A DNA stretch of 31,910 bases from a virus. The notes beneath the pieces were generated by a model. The model made no database searches. It was not told the origin of the DNA and worked only from the letters and a program-made list of their open reading frames with translations. The position numbers were made by a program, and so were the translations under genes. Where the stretch lies: positions 1 through 31,910 of the IMG/VR virus record IMGVR_UViG_3300025086_000131. One strand, written 5' to 3'. Shown here piece after piece: positions 9,368 through 10,425 of this stretch. Positions within the stretch are counted from its first letter, which is position 1, and every line of letters starts with the position of its first letter.

Positions 9368-9670
9368 TTAATCTTTTACAAAAGTTCCATTAATTATTTT
9401 TCCTGTTCTTTTATTAACTATTCTAAAAGCATCTTCTATACAATCCTCAATACACATATCATACATATAAGCCAAGTTGGTTAGCACAATTACAGAATCT
9501 CCAATTGCGTCAGATATTTCTTCTTTATTATTTTTTAAAACTGCGTCTGATAGTTCTCCTGTTTCTTCAAACAATTTAATTAATTGTGTTTTAGGATCTC
9601 CTTTTTTTAAAATTTCTTTATCTCGTGCCCAATCTCTTATAGGTTGGAATGCTGTTGCTAATTGTATCAT
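9368..9670 (-). CDS. MazG-like nucleotide pyrophosphohydrolase
   Basis: This 100-aa protein is all-alpha. It has the MazG / all-alpha NTP-PPase signature: LFEETGELSDAV (E-E-x-x-E) followed by KEEISDAIGD (E-x-x-D), which bind Mg and cleave NTP to NMP and PPi. T4 gp56 dCTPase belongs to the same superfamily. Beside an atypical ThyA-family enzyme, this protein could therefore destroy dCTP or dUTP and supply the monophosphate. A signalling role (degrading ppGpp-like alarmones) is another option. Its ATG overlaps the end of the ThyA-family gene by 4 nt, so expression is probably coupled. Confidence 0.85.
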   Translation of the reverse strand: MIQLATAFQPIRDWARDKEILKKGDPKTQLIKLFEETGELSDAVLKNNKEEISDAIGDSVIVLTNLAYMYDMCIEDCIEDAFRIVNKRTGKIINGTFVKD

Positions 9671-10425
9671 ATTACTAATGGGGTTTTAATATAGTCATAA
9701 CTGCTATAATTTTTTAATTTATAATTATTGTATTCTCCTGTTAATGTAGGTAAATTTTTTATTCCATTACTAAGATATTTTTTTATTTGACTTAACTGAT
9801 TTATATAAACATGAGCATCTGCTAAATTTAGCCCTAACAATTTAGGTTGTAAATTACATTCTTTTGCTATTGTATATAAAAATAAAGCCATAACAATTAT
9901 ATCATAAGGTAATCCTAAAAACACGTCTGAACTTCTAAAATGCACAACTAAATTTAATTCTTTATTAGTTCTTACAAAATTCATTTGAGTAAAACAACAA
10001 GGTAAAGCTTGGTCATTTAAATCACAAGGATTCCAAAGATTGACTATTGCTCTTCTTGAGTTATTTTTAATTTCTTTAATTACATATTTTATTTGGTCAA
10101 AAACATTATTATATTTTCTAATTTGATAGCCATAAACCTTCCCTAATTTATTGTTTATTGCAAAGTCATTCCACCAATTTATATTATAATTCTGTAAATA
10201 TTTTAAATCTGTTTTACCTTCATACATCCATTTAAATTCTCCTAAGGCTTTATTAAAAAAAATTTTTTTTCCTGTAATAATGGGAAAACCTTTTTGAAGA
10301 TTTATATTTAAATGTTTATTGAACAATTTTATTGTAGGCGTATTAGTCCTATTATTAACCATTTGACCTTTTAAAATTATTTTTAACAGTAGTTTTTTAT
10401 ATTTTTTTTCAAATAAATTATTCAT
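9667..10425 (-). CDS. Thymidylate synthase family enzyme, probable dCMP (hydroxy)methylase
   Basis: This 252-aa protein is a full-length match to the ThyA fold. R26 (NNRTNT) and the catalytic C143 in LPCC line up with E. coli ThyA, as do SRRAIVNLWNP, FRSSDVFLGLPYD (R164, D167) and H205/Y207 in DAHVY. Two positions depart from typical ThyA. PCH becomes PCC, and the Asn that pairs with dUMP (E. coli N177) is Asp175, confirmed as codon GAT at 9903-9901. Asp at this site is the hallmark of T4 dCMP hydroxymethylase, and an Asn-to-Asp change switches thymidylate synthase toward dCMP. The likely product is therefore 5-hydroxymethyl- or 5-methyl-dCMP. Ordinary dTMP synthesis is the null alternative. 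Confidence 0.85.
   Translation of the reverse strand: MNNLFEKKYKKLLLKIILKGQMVNNRTNTPTIKLFNKHLNINLQKGFPIITGKKIFFNKALGEFKWMYEGKTDLKYLQNYNINWWNDFAINNKLGKVYGYQIRKYNNVFDQIKYVIKEIKNNSRRAIVNLWNPCDLNDQALPCCFTQMNFVRTNKELNLVVHFRSSDVFLGLPYDIIVMALFLYTIAKECNLQPKLLGLNLADAHVYINQLSQIKKYLSNGIKNLPTLTGEYNNYKLKNYSSYDYIKTPLVI

Follow-up and report, generated by a model that had tools for sequence, protein, structure and literature searches.

The 31,910-base stretch analysed here, an IMG/VR virus record described as a small marine phage and called the window below (29.9% G+C; no tRNA was found in it), encodes a thymidylate synthase (TS)-family enzyme whose specificity residue differs from that of Escherichia coli ThyA. 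Does this enzyme act on dUMP or on dCMP and, if on dCMP, does it make the 5-methyl or the 5-hydroxymethyl nucleotide? We conclude that the best explanation, and on balance a probable one, is a TS-superfamily dCMP 5-methylase that would place 5-methylcytosine in the phage DNA.

Active-site residues and substrate of the TS-family enzyme

The gene is a complete open reading frame of 252 aa at 9667..10425 on the minus strand, as initially annotated in strand and length, and its product, a predicted dCMP 5-methylase, matches PF00303 with 215 bits. The alignment (E. coli numbering) shows R21, E58, W80, Y94, R126, R127, C146, R166, S167, D169, H207 and Y209 to be present. The profile match, together with the catalytic residues E58, C146, R126/R127, R166, D169, H207 and Y209, places the protein in the TS superfamily. 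The catalytic and substrate-binding residues are intact, consistent with the claim in the initial annotation that all ThyA landmarks are retained. That annotation also equated Asp175 with E. coli Asn177, the residue expected of a dUMP-specific ThyA, and here the position of the GAT codon (9901..9903, minus strand) and the alignment agree: the specificity residue has undergone an N177D change.

The same annotation read the ThyA motif PCH as PCC in the window enzyme, and so took the first of the two Cys residues, one position ahead of the correct one, as catalytic. This reading requires two compensating gaps and was rejected. In all characterised enzymes compared (E. coli ThyA, T4 gp42, SPO1 gp29, T2 td and AXL1 gp63), the catalytic Cys precedes the Arg of R-S-x-D by exactly 20 residues; MilA was left out of the TS alignment, and AXL1 stands in for its relative Xp12. 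This spacing identifies the second Cys, C144, as catalytic in the window enzyme. The residues L141-P-C-C144-F145-T146 are encoded at 9988..10005 on the minus strand, and the ungapped alignment of L-P-C-C-F with L-A-P-C-H gives P145C and H147F, so that Phe replaces His147; Q165F is also found.

Two scans of viral contigs yielded 80 IMG/VR relatives of the window enzyme with 61-70% identity to it. Asp177 was found in 80/80, and Phe165 and Phe or Tyr at position 147, within LPCC[FY] or IPCCY, were equally invariant (80/80). Phage S28C10 and two more contigs of its clade have Asp177, Phe/Tyr147 and Phe165, as in the window enzyme. The states at 177, 147 and 165 are not due to chance, as they are fixed across the relatives. 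Asn177 was present in 42 of 43 control phage TS enzymes; His147 was present in all 43, in a column biased by a control search pattern that favours His147. The best match to the window enzyme among GTDB genomes had 38% identity, and neither a host copy nor a prophage was found there.

Mutagenesis and structures link Asp at position 177 to dCMP (PMC8670742, PMC6400193, PMC5175136). An N-to-D change at this position of TS redirects the enzyme to dCMP (PMC8670742), and in T4 dCH Asp179 is required for dCMP and Asp145 for hydroxylation (PMC6400193). In the MetaGPA study, in which natural phage DNA with modified cytosine was selected, 177 and 147 were the top-ranked of all TS positions when cytosine-modified and unmodified phage contigs were compared (PMC8670742). 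The window enzyme differs from ThyA at both. Two other enzymes combine Asp177 with an ordinary His147 and Gln165, one on a Bacteroidetes MAG contig (bac_L092, L092:2392-3213) and one among T4-like td enzymes (ctl_L234, L234:4001-4858), indicating that Asp177 alone is not decisive for the substrate. The fixed Asp177, the covarying position 147 and an adjacent NTP pyrophosphohydrolase gene lend good support to the dCMP substrate and modified cytosine proposed initially, and dCMP is very likely the substrate of the window enzyme.

Methyl or hydroxymethyl product

The hydroxymethylation signature of T4 has two elements, an Asp three residues ahead of the catalytic Cys and a Ser two residues ahead of the Tyr; T4 gp42 also lacks the TS C-terminal tail, and D145N abolishes its activity (PMC6400193). 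Three residues before the Cys, the window enzyme has Leu141 and ThyA has Leu, whereas T4 gp42 and SPO1 gp29 have Asp; AXL1 has Asn, and all relatives of the window enzyme have Leu or Ile. Where E. coli has Val93, before the catalytic Tyr, the window enzyme also has Val. Its C-terminal tail, IKTPLVI (9670..9690, minus strand), superposes on the E. coli C-terminus in the AlphaFold model (pLDDT 95.0, pTM 0.93). Thus, neither the Asp or Glu nor the missing tail of the T4 gp42 type was found, and the window enzyme has three features expected of an Xp12-type dCMP methylase: Asp177, a TS-like tail and no Asp or Glu three residues before the Cys. The model matched full-length ThyA of E. coli and Mycobacterium tuberculosis (Z near 36; Z 35.9, rmsd 1.1, 247 residues), and gave a TM of 0.71 with Acj9 gp42, named a dCMP hydroxymethylase in the viral library.

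A T4 gp42-like hydroxymethylase, producing 5-hydroxymethyl-dCMP that is perhaps decorated later, would account for two states that the window enzyme has in common with T4 gp42, Asp177 and the lack of His at 147. It would also fit the lack of a phage DHFR (none in the 45 related contigs searched and none seen in the window), since its reaction regenerates THF; the same result counts against a methylase, which, unlike a hydroxymethylase, consumes THF. However, the residue that is Asp in both known hydroxymethylases compared, and that T4 gp42 needs for activity, is Leu in the window enzyme, the Val before the catalytic Tyr is that of E. coli TS, and the tail is kept. In addition, the scanned ORFs included no recognised glycosyltransferase or carbamoyltransferase. 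We therefore consider a hydroxymethylase unlikely. With dCMP as substrate, the Leu in place of Asp, the presence of the TS tail and the end-to-end likeness of the model to ThyA favour 5-methyl-dCMP over hydroxymethyl-dCMP, and the residues and the model together make 5-methyl-dCMP a distinctly probable product. The initial assignment as a dCMP (hydroxy)methylase can accordingly be narrowed: the methylase is favoured, while the hydroxymethylase is disfavoured by replacement of the water-activating Asp and by retention of the tail.

Linked genes and the proposed pathway

The TS gene is flanked by two overlapping genes on the same strand. Downstream, at 9368..9670, lies a gene for a MazG-type all-alpha NTP pyrophosphohydrolase, with 4 nt shared between its start and the TS stop; its family membership is shown by a PF03819 match (27.3 bits) and by the EExxE...ExxD metal-site residues. 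Upstream, at 10418..10681, lies a DUF6378 gene (PF19905, 51.6 bits), its end and the TS start having 8 nt in common. This arrangement is conserved. MazG was downstream of TS in 77/84 loci, its start overlapping the TS stop or lying 1 nt past it in 72 of the 77, and DUF6378 was upstream in 68/84, overlapping the TS start every time. MazG was present in 44/45 related contigs, and PRA-PH in all 11 Xp12-like and S28C10-like contigs, in one case with a match below cut-off. In the 43 control contigs, every MazG or PRA-PH match above cut-off was more than 3 kb away from TS. In the MetaGPA data, PRA-PH (PF01503) co-occurs with TS in modified contigs (PMC8670742). The idea that DUF6378 is a second MazG-like domain was not supported by profile comparison. 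T4 gp56 is a dCTPase and, by analogy, the window MazG is a candidate for the same role, which it probably fills.

In many relatives the MazG beside TS is 240-270 aa long (L003:7878-8645, L012:5531-6292, L072:6335-7063), and the N-terminal part of these long forms weakly resembles T5orf172/GIY-YIG (PF10544, just under cut-off in L003). T4 EndoII is a GIY-YIG enzyme that cuts cytosine-containing DNA, a likeness which suggests that the N-terminal part may cut unmodified DNA.

In the pathway that we propose, Cys144 would attack C6 of dCMP, while Asp175 would recognise and protonate the cytosine ring. With 5,10-methylene-THF as one-carbon donor, a ThyA-like hydride transfer would then yield 5-methyl-dCMP and dihydrofolate. 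The overlapping MazG probably splits dCTP to dCMP, which would both feed the methylase and empty the normal dCTP pool. A host kinase would phosphorylate 5-methyl-dCMP to its triphosphate and a polymerase would insert the modified nucleotide, so that much or all of the phage cytosine would be 5-methylcytosine. Such DNA may resist cytosine-sensitive host restriction, as in phage Xp12.

The initial annotation reported neither a glucosyltransferase nor a phage kinase, which holds for the window. The absence of a kinase extends to the 45 related contigs, in which a thymidylate-kinase model gave no match over cut-off and a single short match below it, in L090, a contig of the S28C10 clade. This absence was counted against the methylase, as was the lack of a firm joining to the Xp12 clade. 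In itself it is no objection, because a dNMP kinase is not among the components named in the AXL1 paper's description of its replication module, as far as that description goes.

If the enzyme were an ordinary thymidylate synthase using dUMP, with Asp177 a coincidence, its ThyA-like fold and tail would be explained, and the T4-like td orthologue described above shows that Asp177 with His147 exists. However, changes at 147 and 165 accompany Asp177 across the whole window family, published mutations show that Asp moves preference to dCMP (PMC8670742), and the linkage to MazG is missing from the 43-phage control set; an ordinary enzyme is accordingly improbable. The least probable reading, that 5-methyl-dCMP serves mainly as a route to dTMP through later deamination and not as a DNA building block, would fit the dCMP deaminase that adjoins the Asp177 TS in S28C10 and AXL1, and the title of a 1982 paper, which refers to new thymidylate biosynthesis in Xp12-infected cells, but no dCMP deaminase was found in the window and only one of the 45 related contigs, the S28C10-like L090, has one.

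Genome context and comparison with known systems

Many window genes match those of Nonlabens phage P12024S, a marine flavobacterial phage in which no TS is annotated, and their order is mostly kept. We infer from these matches that the host of the window phage is a marine flavobacterium. The cassette is part of a 3.7-kb block (7606..11348, minus strand) between the homologues of P12024S gp36 (7375-7605) and gp35 (11349-11759), in the place of a 14-base gap between the adjacent gp35 and gp36 of P12024S. P12024S itself (L020), which is without the TS cassette, has an annotated DNA methyltransferase at 32699-33376. The product of window gene 7745-8176 (143 aa) has the C-terminal helix-turn-helix domain of DnaA (PF08299, 47.2 bits), and homologues of this protein occur in 61/84 loci. 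Close to the cassette, 11734-12312 encodes a sigma-factor-like protein (phrog_1740, E 4e-07).

By tblastn, TS was the sole gene common to S28C10 and the window, a sign that it has passed between unrelated phages. A tentative extension of the dCMP 5-methylase reading is that DUF6378, the methylase and MazG constitute a minimal cassette, mobile among unrelated marine phages, with which small phages that have no recognised polymerase, kinase or DHFR replace cytosine by 5-methylcytosine through host machinery; DUF6378 would be needed, and the GIY-YIG-like part fused to some MazG proteins would cut unmodified DNA. If the methylase reading is correct, 5-methylcytosine replacement, best known from Xp12, would be widespread in small marine phages, including some that are likely flavobacterial, and such phages could be recognised by the three-residue signature and the linked MazG. 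This would matter for marine restriction biology and for metagenomic methylation data, and would affect the annotation of genes now labelled thymidylate synthase. These enzymes also offer a natural methylase/hydroxymethylase comparison set for studying the TS mechanism.

In the tree, the window family and S28C10 form one clade (support 100/100), the Xp12-like enzymes a separate clade (98/100) and the T4 gp42-like enzymes a third (100/100). The split between the window family and the Xp12-like enzymes is weakly supported and a joint single clade is not rejected (p-AU 0.61), so that shared ancestry and convergence are both possible.

E. coli ThyA and phage td share the fold, catalytic residues and tail of the window enzyme, but have Asn177, His147 and Gln165 where it has Asp, Phe and Phe. 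T4 gp42 shares the superfamily, Asp177 and the lack of His at 147, where it has Thr; it differs in its Asp three residues before the Cys, its lack of a C-tail and its separate clade. The 'thyA' of the uncultured phage MedDCM-OCT-S28-C10 (AP013540) is closer, with 52-53% identity, the same active-site states and an NTP pyrophosphohydrolase near TS, although this phage belongs to the Autographiviridae and has an annotated dTMP kinase and dCMP deaminase beside TS. The Xp12 type, represented by AXL1 gp63, resembles the window enzyme in Asp177, a non-His residue at 147, a non-polar residue at 165, the absence of Asp three before the Cys and a C-tail, which in AXL1 ends in KPEVIE, and an NTP pyrophosphohydrolase gene again adjoins the Asp177 TS. 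The two enzymes have 27% identity, and position 147 is Pro in AXL1 and Phe/Tyr in the window family; AXL1 has a dCMP deaminase and a DHFR near TS, neither of which was seen in the window, whereas the DUF6378 partner is the window's. Phage Xp12, described as having 5-methylcytosine in place of all cytosine, is the known precedent for this kind of system.
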